Positions 1 through 29,000 of a stretch of 64,000 nucleotides of DNA are shown in pieces. The first letter of the stretch is position 1. Each line of letters begins with the position of its first letter. The DNA is taken from the NCBI GenBank assembly GCA_902728285.1, contig CACVBU010000185.1:414212-478211 (forward strand). Reading direction: 5' to 3'. The position numbers and the translations under genes are program-made. A model generated the notes under the pieces. The model ran no database searches. It saw nothing but the letters and a program-made list of their open reading frames with translations, and was not told where the DNA came from. This DNA comes from Clytia hemisphaerica (lineage: Eukaryota; Cnidaria; Hydrozoa; Leptothecata; Clytiidae).

Positions 1-3000
1 TCTGGCGACATGTAAATTTTTGATCCAACCTAAGAGAAAATTTGTAAAGTTATAGCTCAAGTCAGACTACTTTTCTACCTATTGTAATTGTGACTTAAAG
101 TTGACTGTCTAAAGTCAATGCACTGCCCTCTTTTGACGTATATGCAATGACTCCTTTCAATCTTTTCAAGCTGTTTACCTAATCTAACCTTGTTTGGTTA
201 AGTCCAATCTAATCTCCTCACGCTTTAAGGGTCTGTGGTGTTTAAGCTAGGTTAATAAATGCATGAAGATATATAAACCATAATCGATCTTTGAAATGAG
301 CTTTATTCATACTATTTGTGAATTAGAGGCCTAAAAAGACACAATATCTATGAAGTCAAATTATCAAAACACAGTGTCAAATAAATCGATTTATAGAGTT
401 TATACTATACATTTGAATAGATTTGATAAGATTACGAGTCTGACTTACTGGATTTACATGCTAAATTGAAAATTATACCTGAGTTTTAGCAAGTGATAAA
501 CTTTTCCCATTGTCATCATGAAACGCCACTGCAAGACCAAAATCGCCAATACAACACGAACCATTTTTTCGTACCATAACATTTTGACTTTTCAAATCAC
601 GATGAGCAATCATGGGTTTATTGAGGAGGTTTTGATGTAAATATGCAACTCCTTGTAGCATGGAGGTCATAAGTCTAGTAATGCTTTCAAAACTCAACAT
701 GGGTACAGTTCGTAGATAGTCATACAAAGATCCATATTCGATATACTGAGTAACTAGGTTATGATGGTAAGGCCTGTCTTCATGCGTCTCTCCAGCATGT
801 ACTAATGTTAATATATTTTGGTGTTGGATATTCAATATGGAGTAGATATCTTTTTCTGTAGTCCAGCATTTAGCTCCAACGGGCGAGGCAAATAATTTAA
901 TGGCAACATCGTGTTCTTCGTAATAACCTTTCCATACTTGGGTGAATTGACCTTGATAAATATGTTTTTGTTTATGGAATAATGGTTGCTTGGAAAGAAG
1001 GGAATCGGATGAAACTGAATCCGTTCGGTCAAGTTTTATATGTTTGTAAAGTAGGTAGATGACCAAGATGGAAGCGATTGGTATTGCTATAGTCAATGTG
1101 ATGATTAGAATGTGTACAGTGTTTCCATTGCGTTGCTTTTGAAAATGGTCATCTAAAAAAGATTAGTATTTTTCTGAGTAAAGATATCCATCTCATTTTT
1201 CTGTTTTATCTTTAAATAGTCGAACGTGCGCACCGCACTGGGCTCAACTGCAGATTTTCCCGTTATTAGAAGGCCCAATTGTAACATTTCAAATATTTAG
1301 TATTAGGTAGCAAATAAACTTTGTCCGTTTTGGCTGAAATTTGGTACACTTGTTCCTTGGGTGAATACCTGGGGTGTTTTTATCTTAATTTTTTCATTTT
1401 TTTATGTTTGTAGAATAGTGTCCTCGTCCTAAGAGCCTTTAAAAATAGATAACTTAGGAGAAAGTTCCTCAAACCTTTTGTGGCTTTTGTTCACACGTTG
1501 CTCTGAAAAATTAATTTCCCACAATTTATCATATACGAAAATTGATTTTAAAATTTATCAAGATATTAAAGTTTTCTTGGGTTCACAAATGTTTACATAT
1601 ATCCCTATTCTTAAAGTCTACCATCATAGCTTTACAGTCACTATCCACAGACAAGTTTAAAATATCCCGATCAAAGGGTCCCAGGCCCCAAAAATCAAAA
1701 TTTTCAAAAAATGAAAAAAACACCCCCAGATATTCACCCAAGGAACAAGTGTGCCAAATTTCAGCCAAATCGGACCGTTTTAAAGTCTCCAAGCTGCCAG
1801 CCTCGTTTTGGTGAAAAACTCGTCCCCAGGCCCCAAAAATCAAAATTTTCAAAAAATGAAAAAATACACCCCCAGATATTCACCCAAGGAACAAGTGTGC
1901 CAAGTTTCAGCCAAATCCGACCTTTTTTGAAGTGTCCAGGCTGCCAGCCTCGTTTTGGTGAAAAACTCGTCCCCAGGCCCCAAAAATCAAAATTTTCAAA
2001 AAATGAAAAAAACACCCCCAGATATTCACCCAAGGAACAAGTGTGCCAAATTTCAGCCAAATCCGACCTTTTTTGAAGTGTCCAGGCTGCCAGCCTCGTT
2101 TTGGTGAAAAACTCGTCCCCAGGCCCCAAAAATCAAAATTTTCAAAAAATGAAAAAATCACCCCCAGATATTCACCCAAGGAACAAGTGTGCCAAATTTC
2201 AGTCAAATCCGACCTTTTTTGAAGTGTCCAGGCTGCCCCAAAGTTTTAGCCTCGTTTTGGCGAAAAACTCGTCCCCAGGCCCCAAAAATCAAAATTTTCA
2301 AAAAAATGAAAAAATCACCCCCAGATATTCACCCAAGGAACAAGTGTGCCAAATTTCAGCCAAATCCGACCTTTTTTGAAGTGTCCAGGCTGCCCCAAAG
2401 TTTTAGCCTCGTTTTGGCGAAAAACTCGTCCCCAGGCCCCAAAAATCAAAATTTTCAAAAAATGAAAAAAACACCCGCAGATATTCACCCAAGGAACAAG
2501 TGTGCCAAATTTCAGCCAAATCCGACCTTTTTTGAAGTGTCCAGCCTGCCCTAAAGTTTTCGGACGGACATACAGACATACATACATACATACATACAGA
2601 CAGACATTCTCAGATTATAGCTCAACTGAAGTTGAGAAAAATCTTTTGAAATATTTAAAAGTTCAAATTCAAAATATAATCTCAAAAGTGGTTAAGACTT
2701 TAAAGGGACATTAAAGTAGTAAAATGTAAACATTGCGCGAACCACGTGTCATTAAAAAGAACAATTAAAATCACGTGTCCAAAAAAAACTTGTAAAACAA
2801 TTGAACAATCAAAATTCGTCATATTTGGTTTGATTTTTTATTTTGACATGTGACATTTGTTTTGATTTTGTATCCGCTGCATACAGTTTGTTTACAAATT
2901 TCGCAAGTACTGTTATGTCCCTTTAACTAACAAGTTGATAATTTCAGAAACAGAAAGGGTAGTTTTCTCTGAGTTGTTTGTAAATGAAGAATTAATTTAG

Positions 3001-6000
3001 AAACTGAATAGAAAAATGCCTTTTTGAGGCTTTTACAAACTATTAAAAATGGTATAGTAATTTCTATTGATAGAAACAAAACAGTTATTTTATGTGTAAA
3101 CAAATTGTTTATTGAAGCTCGTTAACTATGACAGACACTTTGATTTATGCTACAAATCAGGGAGCCGGCGTGTGTCTAGCCACCACAATGATTATAATAC
3201 CACAAAAACGGAAAAGAATGCAATTATTTAAAGGTAACATGAAAGAGAACGAGGCAATTCATTTTTAATCTCCTCTAATTGCTTGTAAAAAGAAAATTAA
3301 ACTGTTTTTAATCAGGCATCATCCTTTAAATCAACCACAAATAATTATAAATTAATCATCCTCAGCACAAGTCGAAAATAAAATAAACAAAACTGACTGC
3401 GAGACTTTCGCAAAAAACAAAAAGAAACAATTTAGTTTGTGTTATTTTTCCACTTACCAGTCTTTGTGAGTGAAGTAGTTTGGGGCTTTAAGCCACTCAA
3501 CTTAGTGTAGTTCACCATGGAAAAGTTCAGATTTTGATTGCAAGAATCTCCAATGCAGCAACACTCTAGACTGATTTCTTTCTTATGATCCAGTAATCCC
3601 AAAACACAATCCTCTGTCAAGTGTTCCTTACTTGACCTATGATCGCATGCTTTTGATTCCAAAACAACACTTTCTGAACAGCCACTGATAACATGAGTGA
3701 ATTCTTGTTTTTCTATGTCGTATTTGAGAAGTGAAAAGCAGGAATCTTCTGGGTTGTTACATTCATAAGTCCGTTCACAATCTTGAATGTTTTTGCAATA
3801 AGGATGATTGACTTTGTTACTGAATCGAATGCATTTGTGAGGCCAAACTAAAAAAAGAATGTTCAAAATTTTATTAATTGAAGACCAAAATTTTGATATT
3901 AGCCTCCCATTTGGTTCCAATTTTTGTTGATCATGTATTGCTGGCATTCCGAGAAAATTTTTTTATGTCACCCACATATAGATATCTCCAAGGAATACAT
4001 TATAACATCAAATTGATGCTAATTATAAAATCACAACCACACCCTTTTAAAACATTAAACTTTAAAATTGTCAACAATAGATTTAAACTCTAAATTTTGT
4101 CCTTCATAAAAATATTGGTGATGAAGACGACCAGAATCCAGGTTGTGCTAATTTTGAAAAAAAATTATAAAATGTTATAATTCCTTTAAAACCTGCGAAG
4201 TAAACACATATTTAAAACAAGGAGGGTTTAATAATGGTAAGTCCTAGGTGTATTAAAATTGTAGAATTTTTCAAGGGTGCCATTACGCGCTTATCAGCTA
4301 CCGTGAAGTCGGGTAACTTGCATCAGTGGAGGCTAACATGCATAGCCCTGAAATGACTGACCAATCAAAGCAGCAAAATTTCAAAACAAATGAGCTACGC
4401 AGCTTCGCAGCTCTACTCTATCATTTTTCTTTTGATTTAACTTTGTATTTTAAGGACCAGCCCCAGGTCATTCATTTGAGGGCTATGCATATTAGCCTCC
4501 ACTGATGCAAGTTACCCGACTGCACGTTATTTGAATTAAGTGTGTAATGTCATCTTTAACAGTCCCGGAAATCCTTGCATTTGCACGGTTTTTTTCCGAC
4601 CCTGTGCAAATGAGCTAGAACGTGTAAGGCAAAATGCGCGAAAATTAACAAATCTCAACTTTAAAATGAAAATGGCATAAAAAGAAGACGAATTGGCATT
4701 TTCATTTTCTCTTTAGAAGATTCTTTAAGCCTTTTTAGAAAATTTTTGTCTACAGGTTAAAATTTTGATCTGTTCATATTTTTATAATCAAGTGTAACAT
4801 TTTTCCACTCTGTGTAAATGCAACGGGTCGCAGTGATCTAGTGTGTATTTGCACGGGTTTTTTTCGTCACTTTAGTTTTCAACCCGTTGCATTTGCTGCA
4901 TGTCGAACCCTGTGCAAATGCAAGGATTTTCGTGACTGTTTAACTAGCTAGTAAGTCAATCATTTAAAAAAACCTCATTTCGCTACCTTAATTCAGAAGT
5001 GGCCTAAGTCCTGTGAGCCTTAATTCAAAAGGGGCCTAAGTCCATTATGGTCATTTTGAGAAAATTGCAATTAAAGTTTTTCCTTGATTCTGAAACCATT
5101 TTTGATGGTAAAGCTTTGAAGTAAATGTTTTCTGAAAGCCATAGCTATAAGCTGTTTTTCCAATGAAAAGGCATTCGTTTGAAAGGTATGTATTTTTGTA
5201 TGTAACAGGTGCAACTTAGTAAATCTTGCAGAGTGGACTTAGGCCTTTTTTGAATTAAACATGAATTTTGAAAAACGCGTAAGGGTTAATTTCTGCCTTT
5301 TAGAGTTCAAAACCTACACATATGACACTCCAAAATAAAACCACTTACACCTAGATTCAAGATAAAGAGAAAAGACAATCTCAGTAAAATAAAGAAAAAC
5401 TCAATTAAACTTTTTAGGATGCATGGACTTAGGCCCATTTGCAATTCAATTGGACTTAGGCCTCTTCAAAACTTAACAAACTTATTTTGGTGGACTTAGG
5501 CCTTTTTATTGTAAAAAGTTGATGGACTTAGGCCCTTAATTGTAAAAAGATGATGGACTTAGGCCTCTTTTGAATTAAACATCACTTTTATCAGAGCTTC
5601 AGTATGAAGTTTTGAACCTTTTTAACTTTTAAAAACTACTTGTTATGTACATCAAAAGAGAGCAAATGAGCCAGAGATTGAGAAAAACTAAAGATCTCAA
5701 ATTTCATAAAAATGGACTTAGGCCCCTTTTGAACTGGGGGGTACCTGGACTTAGGCCCCTTTTGAATTAAGGTAGCGATTTGTTTCTGATTGCGTAGATG
5801 AATTTTTAAAATCCTGCCAGTCTGGAAAGAAAAGAATATTTACGCCAGAGATAGCCTTTGTGTAAGCCTATGAAATCCAAAAGTCTGCGCCAGAGATATC
5901 CGGCGTACATGCCTTACTTTCCAGATTGGCTTGAGCGAGACTCAATTCAATTTTTTTCAATTCAAAACATATATTTACCCGAAGGAAGGGACACCAAGTT

Positions 6001-6528: not shown

Positions 6529-6614
6529 TCCGCTTTGTGAACACTAAAAAGACACGTTATAGTTATCGAAAGTGAAAGTACAATCTAAGAAATGGTCGAA
6601 CGGTCAACGGTTTT

Positions 6615-6626
6615 CAAGATGGCGGC
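6615..6626 (+). promoter_or_regulatory. YY1-type site (CAAGATGGCGGC)
   Basis: The 12-mer matches the animal YY1 consensus AAGATGGCGGC. An inverted match (GCCGCCATCTTG) lies at 7811-7822, on the other side of the ORF at 6976-7515. YY1 sites mark initiator regions of many promoters, including some LINE promoters. Use here is inferred only. Confidence 0.4.
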
Positions 6627-6673
6627 AAATTTTTAGTTTTTCATTTTAAATTTTAAATTGTTGATCATAAGAA

Positions 6674-6795
6674 GATTTCGGTGGAGGATTTTCACCAGAG
6701 AGGAGAACAGGAGAATACGGTGGAGGATTTTCACCAGAGAGGAGAATACGGTGGAGGATATTGACAAGAGGGGAGATTTCGGTGGAGGATTTTCT
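6674..6795. repeat. 31-bp minisatellite (GGTGGAGGAT)
   Basis: Four copies of a unit with the core GGTGGAGGATTTTC start at 6680, 6719, 6750 and 6781. Spacings are 39, 31 and 31 bp. It lies between the receptor start and the ORF at 6976, and may belong to the 5' leader of the LINE. Confidence 0.7.
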
Positions 6796-6975
6796 ACAAA
6801 GTAAAGAACCATCAAACCCATCCTTGAACCAACACTCAACAAACAAATCCTGTTTTTCTTGTTTCAAAAATTTTAATAGGGTCAAGAGTGCGTGGCCTAC
6901 AAATTACGTAGTTTTTTAGAACCTATGAAATTTACTGAACAGACAAAAGAAAAGGCAAGAATATATAGATAAAAG

Positions 6976-7515
6976 ATGGGGGAGAGATCAACAACAAAAG
7001 CAACAAAAGTCTATGCGGTGAAAACAGGCAGAAAGAAAGGGCTGTTTGAGACATGGGAAGAGTGCTCAGAACAAGTAAATGGATATAAAGGGGCAGAATA
7101 TAAAGGTTTTAAGACTAAAGAAGAGGCAGAAAAATATTTTCAAGGGATAACCCCTTTCGAGAAAGAAAACAGAGATACACCGAAAGGAGAGGAAGTAAAA
7201 CCTAGTGCTTTAATAAATCCTGAACTAGAAGGAAAAAGTACTCAGGGAGAAGAAGATGATCTGGAAGAGGAAGAATTTTATGATATCCCAGTAGGAGAGA
7301 GTGAGGAAGATTATTTAAGCCAACCCGTGGTGACCCTAAATAAAGAGTCACACTCGAAACCAAACAGCAATGAGATGGAAGAAAAAGACAAGGATGAGGC
7401 GGCCACGTGCGTTTGGTTTGGGAACGCGAAACACGAACGCAAACTACCCATGTCTAAACTTTTCAATATATCTCCAGAACTAACAGATTTTTTGAAATTC
7501 TGTAAAAAGGTCTAA
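6976..7515 (+). CDS. ORF with RNase H1 N-terminal / viroplasmin-like domain, probably LINE-associated
   Basis: A 179-residue intact ORF. Residues about 12-56 (KVYAVKTGRKKGLF, then TWEECSEQVNGYKGAEYKGF, then EEAEKYF) follow the RNase H1 N-terminal RNA/DNA-hybrid-binding fold (VYAV-x-x-GRKxGxFxTWxEC...QV...KxF). This domain is also used in viroplasmin and in some retroelement ORFs. An acidic low-complexity stretch follows (EEDDLEEEEF), then a short conserved-looking tail with CVWFGNAKHERKLPMSKLF. No RNase H catalytic domain is present. It is co-oriented with the LINE ORFs 1 kb downstream, so I take it as an accessory or 5' ORF of that element. A host gene cannot be excluded. Confidence 0.55.
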   Translation: MGERSTTKATKVYAVKTGRKKGLFETWEECSEQVNGYKGAEYKGFKTKEEAEKYFQGITPFEKENRDTPKGEEVKPSALINPELEGKSTQGEEDDLEEEEFYDIPVGESEEDYLSQPVVTLNKESHSKPNSNEMEEKDKDEAATCVWFGNAKHERKLPMSKLFNISPELTDFLKFCKKV

Positions 7516-8461
7516 GTTCCTGAATAGTTTTACTATGTTCTATGGAAAAATCATAAGCATCAGTCAAATACTCGTTCATCTATTTAAGATTGAAGACAAA
7601 AATTTGCGAAGAAAAATATACCTTGAGCACAAAAAATGCTTTTTTAAACACTTTTTTCCACCGAAAAACAAATAACTTTTTACAGACTTACCTTCCCCAA
7701 ACATTGAAGAAGCCTCTACTAATTAAAGTAAATGAGATAAGATAAGATAAAACCTTAAAATCAACCAGAATTTACAACCTTTCGTCCAAAGCAAAAGACG
7801 TGCTTTTCTCGCCGCCATCTTGAATTTAAAATGAGAATTCTAGAGAGTTCCATTCGTTTCCAGCTCCCGCGGTCTTTTTTCATCCAATCAGATCGCGCGA
7901 TTTCACTTTCGCTTTCTCTAGTCCAATAAGACTGCGGGATTTGAGTCATGTGACTTTTCTATTAAAAAACCCGCGTGAAATACAGGGGGTCAAAAATAGA
8001 AATACAGGGGGTCACACTACGGGCTACAGGAACTGAAAGCAAGCAATTAAGGCCAATATTTTTGGTTTTTCTGAAGGACAAAAGGTATAGGAAGCTTTAC
8101 TGAAAGAGGGATAAGGCCGGGACAATCTATTTAAAAGATATGGACATAAAAAAGGCACTTTTTTGGGTGATAATTAAGATTTTACTTAGAAACTTTAATT
8201 CTCTTACCCCCGGCTCGGCCCCCCCTGATATGAGCAAGGAAACCATGATGGCCACCCCTACTGAAAATTTCAGATCAAAACAAACAAGGAATTAATTCCT
8301 GTAACTCGAAGAAAATTGGAAAAAACTGGTTTTTGACTGTTTCTGATCCTAAAGTGCTATTTTTTGGTAAAAGCTATACAATTTATGTTTGGATTTCTAG
8401 AAAGCTTACCCATTCATTGTTAATACATTTTTTATTTGAAAGTAATCTCTTCATGGAATAA
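7516..8461 (+). other. Non-coding stretch between the viroplasmin-like ORF and LINE ORF1
   Basis: I see no ORF of note here. Features: an inverted YY1-type site at 7811-7822, two copies of a short motif (AATACAGGGGGTCA) around 7979-8014, and a C-rich patch near 8210-8225. It could be LINE leader, an unspliced intron, or an insertion. I found no splice pair joining 6976-7515 to ORF1 in frame. Confidence 0.4.
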
Positions 8462-8623
8462 AAAGATATAGTCAAATCTTGTAGGGTCATTTTTCAAAAT
8501 TTTTTTGCCAAATTTCGATTTTCGCATTTCGCCATTTTACCCTACGCAAACGCACGTGCGGCAGGACTAGGAGAGTTTGAGAAAGGCAGAGACGAAAACA
8601 ACAGATGCGGATATTGTAAAAAA

Positions 8624-9949
8624 ATGATATCCAAATCAACCATCAAAGCAATAGAGTGTGACCTATGCTCTAAATGGTTCCACAGCAACAAACAGTGTGG
8701 AAGTGAGCTAGTGCAGGTGTACAACCAAATTATATTACTAGGTGACAGCCCTCTTCTAAAGTGGTACTGTAAGACGTGTGAAAGTGAAATAGAGAACCAT
8801 CAACAGAAAATAGCAGTCAATGTAATGGCCCTAAAAGCGGCAGAAGAAAAAGTAGAAGAAAAGAGCGACACCATAGCAAAACTTAAGGCAGAGGCAAAGC
8901 TGATGAAAGATAATCTAAAGATCGAGGAAGAAAAACACCAGATGGCATTAGTACAGATAAATGGAAAAGAAAGATGGATATCAGAAGTCGCAAGAGCAAT
9001 AGGCATACACCCAAAGCAGAATGAAGAAGGACAAGAAACAAATGGAAAGGAAGTGCTCCAGTGCTTAAAAAGAAAATGGGATGAAAGCAAAAAACGGGAA
9101 AAAGGACTTAGAGACGAGATAAAACAATACAAGAAAAACATAGAGGAGACTATCGTGGAGAAAAGAGAAATAGAAAAAATGCTACAAGAAATGATAGAGA
9201 ACGCTAAACAAGAGAAGGAAAGTAGGCAGGAGAAAGAAATTACGATTCCAGATAGAAGAGCAGAAGCTGAGGAAACAGAAATCACCAGAAAAGAGAAGAA
9301 GATAGAGGAAAAAGTCCAGGGAGAAGCAGAACCAGCAGTGACAAAGAATAAACAGCAGAACCACAAAGGAAAATGGGAAGAAAGGCAGAGAGTAAGACCA
9401 GGAAAGCCAACCCAATGGGAAAACCAGGTGGAAAAAGACCAAGAAACCAGAAGGCAAAATAATGAAGCGGTAAAGAAACTTTGTATATGGCATAATAAAA
9501 AAGGATGTAGATTTCAGAACCACTGCAAGTTTGAACACAAGAAACTATGTCAAAACATCAGAGAGCAAAAGGAATGTAAGAAAGCCAACTGTACACAAAG
9601 CCATGATACATCAATTGTATGTAGATATAACAAAGATTGCAATAAACCAAACTGCAAATTTATCCATACACAAGACAGAGAACAGGGAAAAGAAGAGAAC
9701 CAGAGAGAGAGGAATCAGTTAACAGACGAAGGAAGGGGACAAAAAAGAAGGCAACATGAACAGATCAGCAGAATCAAGCAATTTGAAAATGAAAGTGAAA
9801 CTGATACAAAAGAACAACAACTGTTGGAGAGACTGACTCAAATGATGGGGAAAATGATAAAGGAAAGCGTAAAGCAGACCCTAGAACAAATAGGAGAAGA
9901 AAATGGAAACTCACCTTTTTTAGGAGAGAGAGGGATTCCCCCTCAATAA
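8624..9949 (+). CDS. LINE ORF1: PHD finger, coiled coil, three CCCH zinc fingers
   Basis: The retrotransposon RNA-binding protein; 441 residues from the first ATG, but the frame is open from 8462. The first Cys pair of a PHD-type finger (CGYC at 8606-8617) lies upstream of that ATG. The rest follows: IECDLCSKWFH, then WYCKTC. The true start must therefore be upstream and non-AUG, or supplied by splicing. Residues about 65-260 are charged and heptad-like (coiled coil). Three CCCH fingers follow: C287-X7-C-X5-C-X3-H305, C309-X8-C-X4-C-X3-H327 and C333-X5-C-X4-C-X3-H348. This arrangement resembles Nab2/ZC3H14-type RNA binding. A basic and acidic tail leads into the frameshift site. It overlaps the ORF2 open frame by about 146 bases. 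Confidence 0.85.
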   Translation: MISKSTIKAIECDLCSKWFHSNKQCGSELVQVYNQIILLGDSPLLKWYCKTCESEIENHQQKIAVNVMALKAAEEKVEEKSDTIAKLKAEAKLMKDNLKIEEEKHQMALVQINGKERWISEVARAIGIHPKQNEEGQETNGKEVLQCLKRKWDESKKREKGLRDEIKQYKKNIEETIVEKREIEKMLQEMIENAKQEKESRQEKEITIPDRRAEAEETEITRKEKKIEEKVQGEAEPAVTKNKQQNHKGKWEERQRVRPGKPTQWENQVEKDQETRRQNNEAVKKLCIWHNKKGCRFQNHCKFEHKKLCQNIREQKECKKANCTQSHDTSIVCRYNKDCNKPNCKFIHTQDREQGKEENQRERNQLTDEGRGQKRRQHEQISRIKQFENESETDTKEQQLLERLTQMMGKMIKESVKQTLEQIGEENGNSPFLGERGIPPQ

Positions 9950-9959
9950 ATAAAGGAAT
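9916..9959 (+). promoter_or_regulatory. -1 ribosomal frameshift signal: slippery heptamer plus potential pseudoknot
   Basis: T TTT TTA (9916-9922) is in exact zero-frame phase with ORF1 (codons TTT 9917, TTA 9920). Slipping one base back continues at 9922 into the ORF2 frame, which is open to 13311. After a 7-base spacer, GAGGG (9930-9934) can pair with CCCTC (9940-9944). The loop ATTCC (9935-9939) can pair with GGAAT (9955-9959). The third loop is AATAAATAAA (9945-9954) and contains the ORF1 stop (9947-9949). Short stems with an A-rich third loop are typical of compact frameshift pseudoknots. If all five loop bases pair, no loop-1 base remains, so four pairs with one free A is more plausible. 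Confidence 0.75.
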
Positions 9960-12900
9960 AACAATAACAGAACAGGACAAGGAGGAAGACAAACTAGGAA
10001 ATTTTTCGAGGCAACCAAAAAATGAAAGGAAAAAGACTAGAAGAGGAGGAAAGAAGGTCAAGAACACTCTGAAGAATTTCGAAATTTATTACAACAACAT
10101 CAGAGGGGTCAAATCAAAGATGTCGAGCGTGTTGAGCATTGTAGATGAAAGGAGGCCAGATATGATCATCCTTATTGAAACATGGCTAGATGAGAGTGAA
10201 AAATTTGAAATCAAGGGGTACAAGCCTTATCGAAACGATAGAAGAACATCAAATGGAGGTGGGGTCCTGATAGCAGTAAAGGAACATTTAGAGCCAATCA
10301 CAAAGAAGGTTTCAATGACAAAAGGGAACCTCGAAAGCCTATGGATTACTTTAAATAACAAAAGACACAAAATCAAGATTGGAGCAGTCTACATCCCAAA
10401 AGAAAACATAGGAAGAAACAAACTAGAAGAGGCATTCAAGGAAATAGAGAAAGAAGTAGAACTTGGGATCATAGGAGACTTCCAAACCATGGTAGTAGGA
10501 GATACAAACTCGAAAATCGAAAGCGAGGGTGAAAGTGTAGGAGGAAAGATACAAAAAGAGATGGTTGAGAGACTAAATTTCACAATAACCAACGAAACAG
10601 ACAAATGCCAGGGCAAGTGGACAAGGATTGAAGGAGAATGTAAATCAAGACTTGACTATGTTATGACATGCGAAAGAGCAGAAAACAGCATAATATCAAT
10701 GCAAATAGACGAAGCTAAGATATGGACACCCTGCAGACTGAAGAAACAAAACGGAGAAATAAGACAGATATATAGCGACCACACTGCCATTATGGTGGAA
10801 TGCAATTGGACCATTGGTGAATGTGGCAAAAAGAAACAGCAATACACACGTCATGGGCCAGCAGAAATGAAGAGATTTGAAGAAATGCTGAAAGACAAAA
10901 AATTCAAAGAGGTACTCAATAACGCTAAGGAAGGAATGAGTAGGCGATATGAGCAATGGTCAGAAATGGTTGCGCAGGCATATGAAAATGCGGGAAAAAA
11001 AGTAACACCTCGGAATGGCCAGTCAAAGGAGGAGCGGCTGCTAAACCAAAAATACAAAAATCTGAGAAAGATACAAAACCAACAGGGAGAAGATAAAAAC
11101 CTAACTGAAGAAATACAGAAAGTTAAGGAGGAGATTCTAGAAGCGGAAGGAAGAAGGATCAACAACACAGTAGTAAGAGCTGTGCAAGAAATGAAAAAGA
11201 AGAATGGTGGTATTGACCAAGCAAAATTTTGGGAGATACATAAAAAGATCACCCAAAGAAGGAGAGAAACACAAACAACATCAATCAAAGACAAAGAGGG
11301 AAACCGTAAAGACGATAAGCAAGAAGTTTTGAAAGTGTACAAAGAGTTTTATGAGGAACTGCTAACACCAAAGGAATACACCACAGAGAGGGGAAAACAG
11401 CAGGAAAGGTTAATTGCAGAAAATTTTGAGGAAATCATAAAGACGGCAACAAAGCAGAAACCAATGGAAATCACCACAATGACCATAAATAGAATAATCG
11501 AAAAGCTGAAAAAAAGAAAAGCACCAGATAGAGAACAGTGGAGAAACGAAATGCTCATAGGAGGGGGCACTGAAATCGAAGAGCACCTCAGGATCATTTT
11601 TAACCAAATATCAAATGGAGAGGAGATACCCCAAGCGTGGCAACAAGTCAAAATAAAGAGCATCCACAAGAAAGGATCCACACTGGAAATGAACAATAGG
11701 AGAGGAATCTTTATTACAAACGTGGTCAGTAAAGTATGGGAAAAAGTGCTCCTAGAAAGAATGAACCAAACAATGAAAATTGACATAAACCAGAACGGTG
11801 GGCAGAAGGGAAGAGGAACCTTGGACAACTTGATGGCCATACTGAGCATACAGCAGATGGCAAAGCATAGAGAAACGTACATTGTCTTTGCAGACGCAAA
11901 GAAGTGTTTCGACCGACTTTGGCTCAAAGACTGCATCAAGGACTTGAAAGATGCAGGAGTGAGAGAAGCTGAAGCCAGACAAGTGTTCAAACTTAACAAG
12001 AAATGCCAAATCATCATTGACACCCCAGTGGGTTCCACACAGGAGATAGAGATAGGGGAGATTGTGAAGCAAGGAACAGTTTTGGGGCCACAACTGTGCT
12101 GTGCATCAACAATGATGGTGAACAAAGTTGGTCCCGGTATAGTAACATCAATGGCACCAGGTCTACAAGTAAATGCGCTAGCTTATGTAGATGACATTGC
12201 TGGGGCAGGCTCAAAACTGGCAGCAGAGAACACTTTAAAAGCACTCAAGGAGATGGAGGAGACAAAAAAATTCACCTTCTCAACCTCAAAGACGAAAATA
12301 CTCCACATAGGGAAGAAAAAGAATGAAGAAGAGCTGTCTTTTGAACTGAGAGAAGGGATGGTGAGGGAATGTCAAGAATACAAATATCTAGGAACCTGGC
12401 TGAATCAAAAAGGCAACTTCTCGAGACAACTCCAGGAAATAGAACAGAGAGCAGGAAAGATAGCAGGAGTCATAAACTGCCACGGCCAAAAAGCAATCTC
12501 AATGGAATTGGCAACAAAGTTGTTCCTGTATACGGAAACAGGAACAAACTCAATCTTCGGAGACGTAGAGCTATGGCCAGCACTCACAAAGACAGACTGG
12601 GAGAGTCTTGAGTCCATACACACCTCCAACATCAAAAAGTTTCTTGGACTTCCAGTTACAACACCCAGCTGGGGAGTTCTAGCAGAGACAGGTATCTGGC
12701 CAATAAAGGCCACGATAAATTACAAGAGGCTAATGGTTCTTCACAACATAGTGAACGGCAAAGAACGCCTGGCAAAGACTATTGTTGAAAGCCAAATGAC
12801 AAGAAAGTATGATGAAGAAAGCTGGTACAGTGCAACATGGAGGATAGCTGAGAAACTAAAAATACCAGGGGAGCTGAGAGGATTACCCAAATCAAATTGG

Positions 12901-13311
12901 AAAAGACAAGTAAAGGAGGCAACAAGAAAGGAGATTCAAGAAGAAGTGAGAAGAGAAATAAAGACGAAAAAGAAATTGAGATTCCTGACAAACTTTGAGG
13001 AGAAGACCTATCTCAACGTCAACACTCAAGCAGATGCCAATCTACTCCTGAGAGTACGCTTGAATATGATCAAGGCAAAAGCAAATTATGGCGACAAAGG
13101 GACTTGTAGATTTTGCAGTAAGGAGGAAGAAAGTACAGAGCATCTAGGAGAGTGTGAGGAGATTGATGCTGAAAAAGTAACAGTGGATGAAATCAAATCA
13201 GGCAACCAAGAAAGCTTAAAGAAAGTTGTCAGGAGATACAGAATGGTTGAAAAGATGCTCCAGGTAGAGGAAAAAGGTGGCGATGCCATCTACGGAAAAT
13301 CACGGAACTAA
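9922..13311 (+). CDS. LINE ORF2: APE-type endonuclease, reverse transcriptase, C-terminal zinc knuckle
   Basis: Retrotransposition enzyme, probably made as an ORF1-ORF2 fusion by -1 frameshifting. The first ATG is 10120, but the conserved endonuclease start (YYNNIRGVKSK) lies before it, and the frame has no ATG from its opening near 9804. In frameshift numbering from 9922 (1129 residues): endonuclease motifs NNIRG (58-62), IETW, GDTN, SRLDYV and SDH; reverse-transcriptase motif A FADAKKCFD (Asp about 658), QGTVLGPQ, and catalytic YVDD (755-758); C-terminal knuckle C1062-X2-C-X8-H-X3-C1078. No frameshift or stop interrupts it. The long antisense frames over it are shadows. Confidence 0.88.
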   Translation, partial: RRERDSPSINKGITITEQDKEEDKLGNFSRQPKNERKKTRRGGKKVKNTLKNFEIYYNNIRGVKSKMSSVLSIVDERRPDMIILIETWLDESEKFEIKGYKPYRNDRRTSNGGGVLIAVKEHLEPITKKVSMTKGNLESLWITLNNKRHKIKIGAVYIPKENIGRNKLEEAFKEIEKEVELGIIGDFQTMVVGDTNSKIESEGESVGGKIQKEMVERLNFTITNETDKCQGKWTRIEGECKSRLDYVMTCERAENSIISMQIDEAKIWTPCRLKKQNGEIRQIYSDHTAIMVECNWTIGECGKKKQQYTRHGPAEMKRFEEMLKDKKFKEVLNNAKEGMSRRYEQWSEMVAQAYENAGKKVTPRNGQSKEERLLNQKYKNLRKIQNQQGEDKNLTEEIQKVKEEILEAEGRRINNTVVRAVQEMKKKNGGIDQAKFWEIHKKITQRRRETQTTSIKDKEGNRKDDKQEVLKVYKEFYEELLTPKEYTTERGKQQERLIAENFEEIIKTATKQKPMEITTMTINRIIEKLKKRKAPDREQWRNEMLIGGGTEIEEHLRIIFNQISNGEEIPQAWQQVKIKSIHKKGSTLEMNNRRGIFITNVVSKVWEKVLLERMNQTMKIDINQNGGQKGRGTLDNLMAILSIQQMAKHRETYIVFADAKKCFDRLWLKDCIKDLKDAGVREAEARQVFKLNKKCQIIIDTPVGSTQEIEIGEIVKQGTVLGPQLCCASTMMVNKVGPGIVTSMAPGLQVNALAYVDDIAGAGSKLAAENTLKALKEMEETKKFTFSTSKTKILHIGKKKNEEELSFELREGMVRECQEYKYLGTWLNQKGNFSRQLQEIEQRAGKIAGVINCHGQKAISMELATKLFLYTETGTNSIFGDVELWPALTKTDWESLESIHTSNIKKFLGLPVTTPSWGVLAETGIWPIKATINYKRLMVLHNIVNGKERLAKTIVESQMTRKYDEESWYSATWRIAEKLKIPGELRGLPKSNWKRQVKEATRKEIQEEVRREIKTKKKLRFLTNFEEKTYLNVNTQADANLLLRVRLNMIKAKANYGDKGTCRFCSKEEESTEHLGECEEIDAEKVTVDEIKSGNQESLKKVVRRYRMVEKMLQVEEKGGDAIYGKSRN

Positions 13312-13392
13312 AATACGACGTATTTATAGGTCTCGCACTCTTTTATTAACAATATAGAAGTGCCTATCAAAACAAAAGATAGAGAGGACCAC

Positions 13393-13429
13393 GCAGAATC
13401 GCAGAATCGCAGAATCGCAGAATCGCAGA
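13393..13429 (+). repeat. LINE 3' tail of GCAGAATC repeats
   Basis: 4.75 copies of the 8-mer GCAGAATC stand 80 bases after the ORF2 stop. Some LINE families end in short tandem repeats instead of poly(A). I found no clear target duplication here. Confidence 0.75.
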
Positions 13430-13783: not shown

Positions 13784-14369
13784 TTAGCTGCTTATGAATT
13801 GAACATCAGATAATTTCCCATGAAAAGGTAAATACAGTTTCACTTCTTTTTTTGCAACAGTGGCGACACTTTCATTTTCATCACTAGACTTCATTTTTTG
13901 TACAAAATTCTTACACATCGCTATCAGGATACTTATTCTTAACCAATGTTCGTTTGATAACTTCCCAGTCACTGAGAAATAGACGTTCGTTTGTAGTAGG
14001 TACTTGTTATAAGAATTTACCATCTTCTTTGACGATCTTTGTATCAAGGAAGGGGAAACTATCCTCTGATGTTGATTCTTCTTCTTTGGTGAACACAATG
14101 TTTTTATATCGAGTGTTCAACTAATTGAAAAATGCTGTAATGTGTGCTTGATTTTTGAACAATGGAAAACTATCATCAACATAACGTACGTAATGTATTA
14201 TGTGATAATTCAATAGAACTAACGTCGATAGAAGCGTTTTTTCAATATCAATGGGACAAATCTCGAAAGCCTTTTCCTCAAAATTTCTCATGAATATATT
14301 AGCTAATACAGGTGCTAATGGTAAACCCATGGCAACCCCATCAATTATTAAGTCTGGGAACTGTTGAAA
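13784..14369 (-). pseudogene. Penelope-like reverse transcriptase fragment
   Basis: On the minus strand, QQFPDLIIDGVAMGLPLAP then VLANIFM and later YVRYVDD are reverse-transcriptase motifs 4 and 5 in the Penelope style (GVAMGSPLAPVLANIFM, RYVDD). The frame then meets a stop (ITAFFN*) and continues as LNTRYKNIVFTKEEE then FPFLDTKIV. It is broken and truncated, with no endonuclease domain attached. Confidence 0.75.
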
Positions 14370-14588
14370 TACCGTAACTTGGTCTAATATCGACATCCCT
14401 CCTCTAAATTCGACACCCTTTTCTAGAGCTGAAAAATTAAAAAAAGGTCAAAATTATTTTATTTGCTTAGTGTTAAGGGAGGATAAATCTTTTTTCAATC
14501 ACCGATTCCAACTTTCATATTATTGCTATCTCTAAAAAAGGGTGTCGAAATTAGAAGACGGATGTCGAGATTAGAATAACTTACGGTA
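14370..14588. mobile_element. TA-flanked MITE, CCGTAAGTTG family (copy 1)
   Basis: Ends TACCGTAACTTGGTCTAAT and ATTAGAATAACTTACGGTA are inverted repeats continuing inward through CGACATCCC and TTCGACACCC. The TA duplication suggests a Tc1/mariner-type element. A second full copy lies at 22004-22209 and a solo end at 13628-13655. Confidence 0.85.
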
Positions 14589-14974
14589 GTCAGTATAGCC
14601 CTGACTCTATAAAATTTACAGTCAGTTCAGACTTAAACTCGTTTTATCAAGATTACAGGGTTTTGAGTACAGTATGAGTGGATTTTACTTTTGTTTTCAA
14701 GTGGTTTCATTTTCAATTTCAAGGCAACATCTGAGCAACGGGGTGCTCCCATAGTTACAAGGGTATGTGCAAAAAACAAAATATAGAAAATTTTCCAAAT
14801 CCCCCATTTCGATTTTAATGCAAAGAAAAATGAAACTTTTCTTTGTTTCACTTTTTTGCACCAATTCTTCAAAATTAGAATATTCAAGATTTTTCTTCTT
14901 TTTCTTCTTTTTGATTTATTTCATTTGACGTCAAATTTTTTTCTGGCTGGTTGTGCTCGTCGAAATGCATCAAA

Positions 14975-16012
14975 ATGGCGAAAACTAAAGAAATACCAAA
15001 AAAAACCGAAATTCAACAAAATAATGGATTCTGCACCCCTGACAACTGCTTCATGAATGAGATTGTGAAGGACAATGATGTGCTACAATGTAGAAGATGC
15101 GAAAGGTTTGTCCATTATGCATGCACGGAGCTACCTGCCTATCAGATACAGCTGTGTCTCCAATACAAAAGCCGGCGCTTCGAATGTGCCAAATGTGTTA
15201 CAGTCACGCCAATTCTTCTGGAAAAGATCAAAACAAGTACAGAAAGAGTGCGTAAAGACAAGGCAACAAATACTGATAAGGTTAATAATGGAGAGCAACA
15301 AGGAGATAAATCTACAAACGCCCGATTGGACAGGCTGGAGAAGAAAATCGAGAAACTTTTAGATAAGGAAGAAGTCGCTAAAGATAAAAAACAAAGGACA
15401 TACGCAGAAACTACCAAAGAAGAACTGAAGAAGCAAGAGGTAACTATGAAACAACAGACATATGCTAGCATTACAGAGTTAAAGAAACAAGAGGTAACGA
15501 TCAAGAACTTCATCAAAGAAGAGAAAGAAGAAGTACGATGGCTGAACCTGACAAAGTGCAATATCATTGTTCACAACATTGATGAACTCAAACATGAAAC
15601 CCTTGAAGAACAGCGAACAAGTGATAAAGATTACGTCGAAGAATTTGTGAGCAACCAAATGGGACTAAAGGTAAACATCGTCAGCGCAGAAAGAATAGGA
15701 GCTCGAAAGGACGAGATGTTCAGGACGAAACGTTGGCGACCCTTAAAAGTTGTGTTAAGGAATGAGGAAGAGAAACGTCAGATTCTAGCATCAGTCCACA
15801 AGCTAAAGAAAATTGTAACTGATTTACGAGTAACCGATGATTTTTCTAAAAAAGAACGCGAAACCATCAAAGAATGGCATAGGAACGCAAAAGAGAAGAC
15901 AAAGTTACAAAAGGATGGCAGTCAAATAAAGGTTAGAGGAAGTCCTCGGACTAGACTCTATTTCAAGAAGATCTGCTGTGACTTACGCGTTACTGAAAAT
16001 GAAATATTGTAA
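14975..16012 (+). CDS. Intact stand-alone LINE ORF1-type protein (PHD, coiled coil, RRM-like)
   Basis: 345 residues from an ATG in good context (AAAATGG). A PHD-like zinc domain at the N-terminus has CTPDNC, LQCRRCERFVHYAC and FECAKC. A Lys/Glu-rich coiled coil follows, with two near-identical TYA/KKQEVT segments. Then an RRM-like block (CNIIVHNIDE ... LKVVLRNEEEKRQILA) and the C-terminal motif KVRGSPRTRLYF complete the ORF1 layout of CR1/L2-like LINEs. No ORF2 follows: the sequence runs into AATAAATAAATTC (16107) and then the AP4E1 leader. It could be a non-autonomous ORF1-only element, a 3'-deleted copy, or a domesticated gene. The first frame codon in the window (14951) is TTG, so I chose 14975. 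Confidence 0.75.
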   Translation: MAKTKEIPKKTEIQQNNGFCTPDNCFMNEIVKDNDVLQCRRCERFVHYACTELPAYQIQLCLQYKSRRFECAKCVTVTPILLEKIKTSTERVRKDKATNTDKVNNGEQQGDKSTNARLDRLEKKIEKLLDKEEVAKDKKQRTYAETTKEELKKQEVTMKQQTYASITELKKQEVTIKNFIKEEKEEVRWLNLTKCNIIVHNIDELKHETLEEQRTSDKDYVEEFVSNQMGLKVNIVSAERIGARKDEMFRTKRWRPLKVVLRNEEEKRQILASVHKLKKIVTDLRVTDDFSKKERETIKEWHRNAKEKTKLQKDGSQIKVRGSPRTRLYFKKICCDLRVTENEIL

Positions 16013-26000: not shown

Positions 26001-29000
26001 ACACCGGGATTACAAATTAAACATAATTAAAACTAAATGTTCAAGTTCATTAAAGATGGCTTTTCTGCCATCAACAACTCTTTTATTTTTTGTTTTCTGC
26101 ACATGTTTACAAAATTGAATTATAAAAACTGAGTTTAATTGGGTCGTGGTAGAAACAATACAATTGTGATAAAAATGCTGCGTAAATGTTAAATCTTCGT
26201 TACAGTTGAAAAAGCACTGCCAATAACCACATGTGCAACATAATTACCACCTGTCATTCGCTCTCCAGAAACTTTCTTGACAATTGGTTTTTTAATCATT
26301 GATGTTCCGGCACCAATCAAAGCGGCGCCACCAAAAACTGCCCCTAAACCACCTGTCAATGCTGTAAGCGCGATACCACCTGCTATGGCACCAGCACCTC
26401 CAAGAATTGAAAATCCTGCTTTAGCAAACGTCTTGCCTTCAGATTCTTGGCAAGTACACGTGCAACGATTAGGGGCATCACATTGGTATCTGTAGTCGTA
26501 ATCCTCATTACATTTTCCATCTATGCATGAATCGCATTTCCCCATCTTTGTTTATATTTTTAATCTTTGCTTGACTTTTCTATATGATAAAATACTATAG
26601 TCAATGTAGTTCTTATTGCTTTTTATAGTCTCCCCACTTATCGTTTTGAAAATATATATTTTCAATCACACCCTAACTTCACCAGTAATTAAATATTTCT
26701 CGATCCCCCGACAGTACAGGGCTTGTTATGAAATCGGTTTTCACTAAAAAAATCACCCTAAATAAGCAGATATTTGAATCCAAGAATTGAAAATTTTTTC
26801 TATTGCCTCTTCCAGTAGGACAAAACATGTTTTGTTCCTCCGCTTACTGCCCACAATACCATAAATAAAGTATTAATTAACTTATAAAAGGATATCAGTT
26901 TCTTTGCCATAAAAGGCGAAAAAAGTCTGATCTCATTCAAGAGATATTTAGTACTAGAAATAAGGGCTCTTGAAATGTGTATATGTTTACTTTTTAACCC
27001 CTGAGATACTAGTATAGTAAACACTAGTAACTTTCTTTTCCCAGAAAATTAAGGTTCCCACTGCTTTTCCTCGCTCTAATTAGCTGACAGTTAGTGAAGC
27101 ATTGCTTCTAAAGGTAGGAGAAAAGCGAGGGGGGGTTGGAATAAAAATGTCAAAAAGGAGGCTGATACAGCAGAATCAGGGCAAAAGAGGGAACTTTCAA
27201 AAAAAAATTTCCCAAAAATCAATAAGCGGGGGGGTTGGAATAAGAATGTCCTGGGTGGAAAATTTTCGAAAAATTAATTAGCGGCCCCCCCCCCCCCCCC
27301 CCGGCTTTAGGCACCCGAGAGTAGATTCTAAAAAGTGAGTCGGTGGGTCGTTCTAAAAAGTGAGTCGGTCTGTCTATAAAGTGAGTCGGTCGGTTTAAAA
27401 AGTGAGTCGGTCGGTTTAAAAAGTGAGTCGGTCGGTTTAAAAAGTGAGTCGGCCGGTCTAATAAGTGAGTCGGTCGGTCTAAAAAGTGAGTCGGTCAGTC
27501 TAAAAAGTGAGTCGGTCGGTCTAAAAAGTGAGTCGGTCGGTCTAATAAGTGATTCGGTCGGTCTAAAAAGAGAGTCGGTCGGTCTAAAAAGAGAGTCGGT
27601 CGGTCTAAAAAGAGAGTCGGTCGGTCTAAAAAGTGAGTCGGTCGGTCTAAAAAGTGAGTCGGTCAAAAAAGTCTAAAAAAGTGAGTCGGTCGCGTTCTAC
27701 AAAATTGAGGCGGTCGGTTACAACGTCGGCGGTCTACAAAGTCTACAAAGTGAGGCGGTCGATCGGTCTACAAAGTGAGGCGGTTTAATTTTTCAAATAT
27801 ACCTAGCATGATCAAAGTTGATAAAATGTCCTAAGAGAAGAGATTGCATCTCTCATGCCAAACCAAACGAATCATCAAAAAAAGAAGCAACAAAAGAATC
27901 ATTCAACTGTGAGTTTGTTTACTCACCTGCGTTGGGTTTCGGTCGCTAAAAAATCCCCCTTCCATTTCCAACATGGGTTTCGACCGGTAAAATGGGTTTC
28001 GGCCGTTAGGTTGGGCTTCGACCGCTAAGCTGGGTTTCGACCGCTGAAGTTGGGTTTAGACCGCTGACGGAAAAAAATACGCGTCGGCGGCTGGTTTTCA
28101 AATAAAACTTGGAGTTACACCTCAAATCATATCCCGGTGTTCTTAACCTGATAACAGTTGTTCATAACGCGCACGGTAAACCTCTGAAGGCGCTTGAAAA
28201 TTATACATCTGAGGAAAATAGTCCTCTCGCGGAAAATTCTACACCAAGAATCTTGTTGTGCGCCAGAAAATTAAAAACTGATACTGCGCCCTATTCATAA
28301 ACACAGTCACGCAACTTTGTTGTTATTCCTATTAGTCCTTTTAGACAAACGCGGCCCTTACGATTTCGAGATTGCATATTCGTCAGATTGTTATGTTTTC
28401 ACCCATTCTTTAGAGCTTCAGCGTGGTGGGCAGAAAAAAATCCCAATCTGATCTCAGGCTAGGTGTTCTAGGATGGCATTTCCAAATTTCATTTCTTTCT
28501 ATACCCCTACCTCTCTTTTCATCCACACCAATTTATATTTTTATTTTCTCCTTTTTGGACCTACCACGGAGGTCCTTTAAATTAACTGATGTTCGTTCGT
28601 TCGTTCGTCTGTTACCAGCTTTCCTCGGGATTGGCTCATTAGTTTTTCTTATTCTTTGCATAGTAATACAAATTGACAATACTCAAAAAGTGACGGAACC
28701 CAATTTTTTTTAAGAAAATTTTTGGGCAAAGTGCCTGAAAATGGAGTTTTTTGGACTTTTTGTGAAATTGCTTCATTATTTTTTTCTGATTTTTTTTGCA
28801 TAAAGACGGAGGACAAGATTTTGTTATCTTTTTCGTTTAAACGTAAAAACTTTTAAGCTTCCCCGACCAAAAAGCCAAAGAGATCTTTTTTGAAATTTCA
28901 AAATTTTCATCTGTCGTAAAACGTAAAATACTTTTAAAAAACGTAAAACGTAAAAACTTTTTAAAGCTTCCCTGACCAAAAAGCCAAAGAGGTCTTTTTT

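Follow-up and report, generated by a model that had tools for sequence, protein, structure and literature searches.

A probable U UUU UUA signal for programmed −1 ribosomal frameshifting between the two ORFs of a Clytia hemisphaerica LINE

Introduction

Control of the ORF2:ORF1 ratio has been worked out for few LINEs, SART1 and mammalian L1 in the surveyed literature, and in these ORF2 is expressed by reinitiation (PMC5972666). For the LINEs of Paramecium, a +1 shift or reinitiation was proposed for groups 1 and 2, and readthrough for group 3 (PMC5405496). The Dictyostelium elements TRE5-A and TRE3-A (DRE) are said to need a −1 frameshift for ORF2 (PMC5911963), and through that claim −1 shifting in LINEs is already in print. 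Among viruses, the shift site of HIV is given as U UUU UUA, the 3′ stimulators of alphavirus frameshifting are diverse, and no functional structure 3′ of the site has been shown in Semliki Forest virus; the non-LTR elements mentioned in the accessible sections of the same review are HeT-A gag and TART (PMC5009743).

In the open-licence literature searched, no account was found of a −1 shift at U UUU UUA that joins two LINE ORFs, or of an animal LINE clade that has a retroviral-type site with comparative support alongside an ATGA stop-start family. The alphavirus 6K-TF sites share the U UUU UUA heptamer, and the compact pseudoknots of luteoviruses have a 5/2/3 geometry (5-bp stem 1, 2-nt loop 1, 3-bp stem 2) with an A-rich loop 3.

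The junction described here lies in a 64,000-nucleotide stretch of DNA from the hydrozoan jellyfish Clytia hemisphaerica (the window), to which positions refer unless another locus is named. The window occupies C133:414212–478211 of the genome. It carries the same U UUU UUA as HIV-1 gag-pol, which is viral, whereas here the heptamer belongs to a LINE. Like groups 1–3 of the Paramecium LINEs, the window LINE would require non-standard decoding of ORF2, but the decoding proposed for Paramecium is not −1. A preliminary description of the window had proposed an ORF1-ORF2 fusion by −1 shift at this heptamer.

Results

The window element is an APE-type LINE (non-LTR retrotransposon) on the forward strand, occupying approximately 6600–13429 as a whole. 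We infer its start, near 6600, from the beginning of the match to a second genomic copy, L013, in which positions 1092–1898 align with the 5′ UTR and first ORF1 portion of the window (6600–7400). In the frame reading of the window, the 5′ open frame of ORF1 runs from 6973 (KMGERSTTKATKVYAVK..), with an ATG near 6976, and this first portion includes an RNase H1 N-terminal-like domain. ORF1 is split by an insertion at 7401–8556, which adds 1156 bases (1.16 kb) relative to L013 and whose two ends are similar in inverted orientation (CACGTGCGTTTG). The window copy is thus not intact, which the preliminary description had overlooked; the inserted DNA is probably a transposon of the DNA class or a MITE. 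The remainder of ORF1 (8557–9949) encodes a PHD-like zinc finger, a coiled-coil-like stretch and CCCH-like cysteine clusters, and ends in a TAA at 9947–9949, the first base of which lies 25 nt past the last base of the heptamer. By frame reading, ORF1 and ORF2 overlap by 145 nt (9805–9949). After the proposed slip, ORF2 would be read from 9922 to 13311, with an AP endonuclease, a reverse transcriptase and a C-terminal Cys/His motif. The first two domains scored above the Pfam cut-off (PF03372, E 1.5e-6; PF00078, E 3e-20) and the Cys/His motif was judged by eye; the best PDB matches were R2 reverse transcriptases (E 4.4e-5), and an NCBIfam search gave no informative match. The element ends in a tandem repeat, (CGCAGAAT)4.8, at 13392–13429, the copy number of which differs among insertions.

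A DNA search of the 417 Mb genome found the window family at four places (window, L013, L014 and L015), whose common 3′ end carries CGCAGAAT units in varying number and whose flanks differ. L013 is 98% identical to the window at the DNA level, with intact ORFs and an unchanged heptamer. L014, also 98% identical, has many stops and T5 instead of T6, and L015 (97%) has a match that starts at window position 10077. These four copies say little about constraint. Comparison of the window with L013 yielded dN/dS values of 0.137 for ORF2 (20 synonymous and 11 nonsynonymous changes) and 0.143 for ORF1 (9 and 6), and this purifying selection on both ORFs indicates that both were translated in recent ancestry.

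ORF1 of L013, free of the 1.16-kb insertion, is intact and 603 aa long. Its N-terminus carries the RNase H1 N-terminal domain (PF01693, E 2.8e-18, residues 11–54); the PHD-like finger falls below the Pfam cut-off (E 0.01), and Pfam returned no CCCH match in this protein. CCCH fingers do score above the cut-off in ORF1 of P0054, L032, L047 and L060. PF01693 was also seen at the start of ORF1 in L025 and P0054, and the Pfam scan did not find it in ORF1 of L032 or L060. In public databases, L013 ORF1 (1474–3282) is identical to P0053, a Clytia hemisphaerica protein called 'DNA ligase 1-like', a name that is evidently a misannotation of a LINE ORF1. Another protein of this species, P0001, is 100% identical across 74% of ORF2. 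The ORF1-ORF2 fusion predicted from L013 would comprise 595 + 1126 = 1721 residues. The size proposed earlier, about 1560 residues, is wrong because it was taken from the downstream remnant of the insertion-interrupted ORF1.

Other features lie elsewhere in the window. An open frame of 365 aa at 14915–16012 resembles, by eye, another LINE ORF1, with PHD-like cysteines, a coiled coil and an L1-like-looking C-terminal part. On the minus strand, 14121–14447 encodes a fragment (GVAMGLPLAPVLANIFMRNFE..YVRYVDDSF) that we take to resemble a Penelope-like reverse transcriptase. A tandem array with a 21-nt unit occupies 27296–27728.

The slippery heptamer T TTT TTA is located at 9916–9922 in ORF1 phase, with zero-frame codons TTT (9917–9919) and TTA (9920–9922). 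Here the preliminary description was exact: the heptamer is in ORF1 phase 25 bases ahead of the stop, the −1 frame is open to 13311 (it reads 9805–13311), and this frame has no ATG until 10120, inside the endonuclease, where the codon follows YYNNIRGVKSK. The probability of an in-phase TTTTTTA arising by chance in the 145-nt overlap is about 8e-4 under a Markov model and 9e-4 by codon shuffling, and this heptamer is the sole T6 run in 8558–13311 (0.28 expected). The expected number of canonical in-phase heptamers of any kind is 0.32 for the window overlap and rises to as much as 1.1 for that of L032, which is longer. Weak by itself on that count, the window copy is suggestive, and the case for the site therefore rests on its relatives.

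Searches of the genome gave at least 42 matches with the protein, at least 109 with the endonuclease and at least 5 with ORF1. Twelve junctions were read (window, L013, L014, L025, L032, L040, L047, L048, L053, L054, L055 and L060). The loci left out are L034, L038, L049 (runs of N), L050, L051 and L052, in none of which the junction could be read, and L015 and L035, each of which starts past it. An in-phase TTTTTTA was found at eight of the twelve (window, L013, L032, L040, L047, L048, L055 and L060), with a T-run of exactly six in all eight. Counted by family, the heptamer is present in five of six, two of those five being decayed downstream. The junctions without it are L014, with its T5, and three copies with an ATGA stop-start (L025, L053 and L054), in which the stretch reaching from 300 nt upstream of the ORF1 stop to 100 nt downstream contains no T6. 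The alignment of junctions that the preliminary description called for thus bears out the heptamer, kept in 5/6 families, and not the proposed stems, which are missing in L032 and L047.

These families are strongly diverged. In ORF2, L032 is 35% identical to the window family (over 790 aa), L047 39% (171 aa) and L025 35% (1083 aa), and in an in-clade endonuclease tree a single 100/100 set, of 11 long-branched rows, contains window, L013, L032, L047 and L025. Window, L013, L032, L047 and L048 have a −1 frame that is open across the site; this frame begins 12 nt ahead of the heptamer in L047 and L048 and 21 nt ahead in L032, and the ORF1 codons beyond the heptamer number 8 in window and L013, 113 in L032 and 52 in L047 and L048. 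In all five of these loci, the coding sequence examined has a single T6 run, namely the in-phase TTTTTTA of the overlap (chance probability about 0.0008–0.004 each). The heptamer is also in phase in L040 and L055, where, however, the −1 frame is shut after 20 and 32 codons and, in L055, the endonuclease sits in the third frame; we read both as decayed, and they back only the phase. L060 (C261:1381300–1384000, minus strand) has the heptamer, an intact ORF1 and an internally deleted ORF2. It could be a non-autonomous derivative that retains ORF1. Comparison of L047 with L048 revealed no purifying selection (1 synonymous and 4 nonsynonymous changes at the start of ORF2, 1 and 2 at the end of ORF1), the changes being too few.

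Given the residues P/S-F-L and the codon usage of each of three families, the probability of NNT-TTT-TTA is 0.0097, 0.025 and 0.0095, or 2.3e-6 jointly; codon usage alone is unlikely to give an identical T-TTT-TTA in all three. At the protein level, ORF1 of P0054 shares 37% identity with L013 by BLASTP (41% in the alignment), and its end, TFLEEGGIPPQ, compares with PFLGERG(I/T)PPQ in window and L013, with an equal distance from F-L to the stop. This conserved tail falls exactly on the position of the first stem described below, and dual coding could be an alternative cause of its conservation. A second ORF1 search returned five further proteins, four of which (P0059, P0060, P0061 and P0063) have F-L-E past the zinc fingers, P0062 being without it. 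F-L-E is invariant in L032, P0059, P0060 and P0061 amid a poorly conserved C-terminal region. In the ORF1 alignment, the F-L of L032 does not align with that of the window, and the site has therefore moved or arisen twice.

Downstream of the heptamer, all segments named in the preliminary description are present: GAGGG (9930–9934), ATTCC (9935–9939), CCCTC (9940–9944), AATAAATAAA (9945–9954) and GGAAT (9955–9959). Stem 1 is a predicted 5-bp GC-rich hairpin, GAGGG-AUUCC-CCCUC, at 9930–9944 on the plus strand (−8.4 kcal/mol), starting 7 nt past the heptamer. A putative stem 2 would pair GGA (9955–9957, plus strand) with UCC (9937–9939), giving a 3-bp pseudoknot with loop 1 at 9935–9936 and loop 3, AAUAAAUAAA, at 9945–9954; the window would also allow a fourth pair, with 9958. 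The 5-bp stem 2 proposed earlier fails, as it contains a C.A mismatch in the intact L013 (T9936C) and leaves no loop 1. The best predicted pseudoknot has a 4-bp stem 2 (UUCC:GGAA) and a 1-nt loop 1 in the window, and a 3-bp stem 2 (UCC:GGA) and a 2-nt loop 1 in L013, with an A-rich loop 3 in both. T9936C, the sole L013 change in this region, falls in loop 1 of the 3-bp version; it leaves the −1-frame residue unaltered and replaces I by T in ORF1. The stem comparison between window and L013 is one of near-identical DNA copies only.

The compact pseudoknot score was equalled at 0.7% of element positions for the window and 1.1% for L013, and the fold over 35 nt at 3.7% and 3.8%. Over longer spans the window-family fold is ordinary: 31% of positions equal it with 60 nt and about 60% with 100 nt, and the 60-nt downstream fold is unremarkable against shuffled sequence (z −1.31; 25 of 200 shuffles as stable). 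In L032, L047 and L048, no structure was predicted in the first 35–50 nt past the heptamer, and no such pseudoknot. A short hairpin or compact pseudoknot would probably stimulate slippage in the window family only; a pseudoknot confined to one family, and not general, is plausible from these predicted folds, and the other families must have a different stimulator or none. Rfam returned nothing at gathering score on 9800–10100; the best match, RF04351 (E 0.0027; 25.3 bits, where the gathering score is 68), covers the hairpin at 9922–9961 and was taken as chance. A pattern search with GGAATNNNNNTTTTTTA was discarded: its matches numbered 330 forward and 289 in reverse, compared with 290 and 310 for a control with the pattern reversed.

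The first ORF2-frame ATG (10120–10122, plus strand) lies downstream of the YYNNIRG motif, as does the first such ATG in L013 and L032, and it was rejected as the start of ORF2 since it would remove this motif. None of these three loci has an ATG at the ORF1 stop, the arrangement of a SART1-type stop-start. In L047 and L048, an ORF2-frame ATG in good context occurs 90 nt past the heptamer, and ORF2 may start there. Among six ORF2 proteins of the clade, which are predicted proteins starting at Met in these rows, four (P0002, P0004, P0005 and P0007) have a Met upstream of YYxNIRG, and some relatives may therefore use an ATG; P0003 and P0006 begin past the motif. Two of the four, P0004 and P0005, group with the L025 family. 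In that family, L025 (C417), L053 (C366) and L054 (C472) have an overlapping ATGA stop-start between ORF1 and ORF2, from which ORF2 is probably expressed by termination-reinitiation. A AAU UUU was considered as a slip site in L025 and L054, where it is in phase; in L053 its phase is lost while the ATGA is present, and reinitiation is therefore preferred for this family. In L032, C CCA AAC is in phase at rc 1471 and is a candidate second slip site.

Discussion

Observed directly in the DNA are the in-phase heptamer, the overlap in the −1 frame, the lack of an ATG and the recurrence of the exact heptamer in diverged families. We interpret the junction, with a probability of about 0.8, as the place where ribosomes on the RNA of an APE-type LINE undergo programmed −1 frameshifting, which would yield an ORF1-ORF2 fusion. 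Most ribosomes on ORF1 would stop 8 codons past the heptamer, and a minority would slip from U UUU UUA to UUU UUU and enter the endonuclease-reverse transcriptase frame, so that the fusion would be made at a low ratio to ORF1, like retroviral Gag/Gag-Pol. It is from sequence that we infer the slippage, its efficiency and the existence of the fusion protein. The fusion proposed in the preliminary description is favoured by the in-phase heptamer in 5/6 families, with its predicted size corrected. That description had also held that intact copies lacking the heptamer or the stems would count against it, and such copies exist in part: L032 and L047 are stemless yet keep the heptamer, and the L025 family is without the heptamer, but has an ATGA start in its place. 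On balance we favour, with less assurance, a wider reading in which the whole cnidarian LINE clade would make a Gag-Pol-like fusion by U UUU UUA, the heptamer being kept, or regained at other positions, over a deep divergence, the 3′ stimulators turning over, and one branch having passed to ATGA reinitiation.

Clytia, like Hydra, trans-splices. The most serious rival, though in our view an improbable one, is partly for this reason a 3′ splice acceptor, TTTTTTAG|G, which looks like a polypyrimidine tract plus AG and at which spliced-leader addition or cis-splicing would yield a separate ORF2 mRNA. The junction reads CC-TTTTTTAG-G in window, L013, L040, L047, L048 and L060 and TC-TTTTTTAG-A in L032; with a G after TTTTTTA at seven of eight loci, TTTTTTAG therefore also resembles an acceptor. 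A Hydra operon combines a polypyrimidine tract with an AG acceptor and spliced-leader addition, and its downstream gene starts at its own start codon (PMC3273482), whereas a spliced ORF2 here would still be without an AUG unless the leader supplied one. An acceptor leaves unexplained the ORF1 phase in all five T6-bearing families, the −1 relation in those with an open frame, and the conserved P0054 tail past F-L; L055, a decayed copy, has TTTTTTAC and no AG. Rather less probable again is a mechanism of the SART1 or L1 type, with termination-reinitiation or with internal initiation at a downstream AUG or a non-AUG codon. SART1 does operate by UAAUG coupling (PMC5972666), the ATGA of L025, L053 and L054 is of this kind, the L047/L048 ATG could serve an internal start, and the ORF2 frame of L032 offers GTG 1189, GTG 1315 (in good context) and CTG 1339. 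The window family, however, has no ATG ahead of 10120, where starting costs the protein its YYNNIRG; the sole in-frame codon among CTG, GTG, TTG and ACG in the window (CTG 10069) is TTG in L013; and in L013, 42 ATGs, counting that of ORF1 itself, lie between the ORF1 start and the first ORF2-frame ATG.

Programmed −1 slippage by the ribosome has a transcriptional counterpart, treated as a subject of its own in the review PMC5009743, in which the polymerase would add one U within the same T6 run and ordinary translation would give the same product. We consider it very unlikely: T6 is short, the mechanism has no need for an ORF1-phase T TTT TTA ending in A, and reverse transcription of T7 RNA would leave fused-frame genomic copies, whereas T7 was found at none of the twelve junctions. 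Least credible of all is chance, or conservation of F-L at the protein level with no decoding role. F-L-E does lie within a helix-like stretch in the L032 group, but the codon-level probability of 2.3e-6 and the lone T6 runs oppose this explanation.

If ribosomal −1 frameshifting at U UUU UUA is true of this LINE clade, the conserved site would imply that ORF1 and ORF2 are delivered as one covalent unit, that their ratio is set and that fusion gives cis preference, a LINE strategy convergent with Gag-Pol. With ATGA in a related family of the same genome, two decoding strategies would be directly comparable in a tractable jellyfish.

A PHD-bearing ORF1 occurs in many CR1 and L2 subgroups (PMC4120745), and in this respect the CR1/L2/Jockey superfamily resembles the window element with its PHD-like finger; the window-type ORF1 adds the RNase H1 N-terminal domain and CCCH fingers, and the terms 'RNase H' and 'CCCH' do not occur in the main text of that article. 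SART1 and L1 are likewise two-ORF LINEs with a coupled ORF2; the L025 family is SART1-like, whereas the window family is not. A luteovirus-type pseudoknot can be drawn, as a predicted fold, for window and L013, and was not found in L032, L047 or L048. Dictyostelium TRE5-A and TRE3-A are, like the window element, APE-type LINEs for which a −1 shift is proposed, the likeness lying in that published claim; unlike the window LINE, they are Amoebozoan, L1-like and tRNA-gene targeting.
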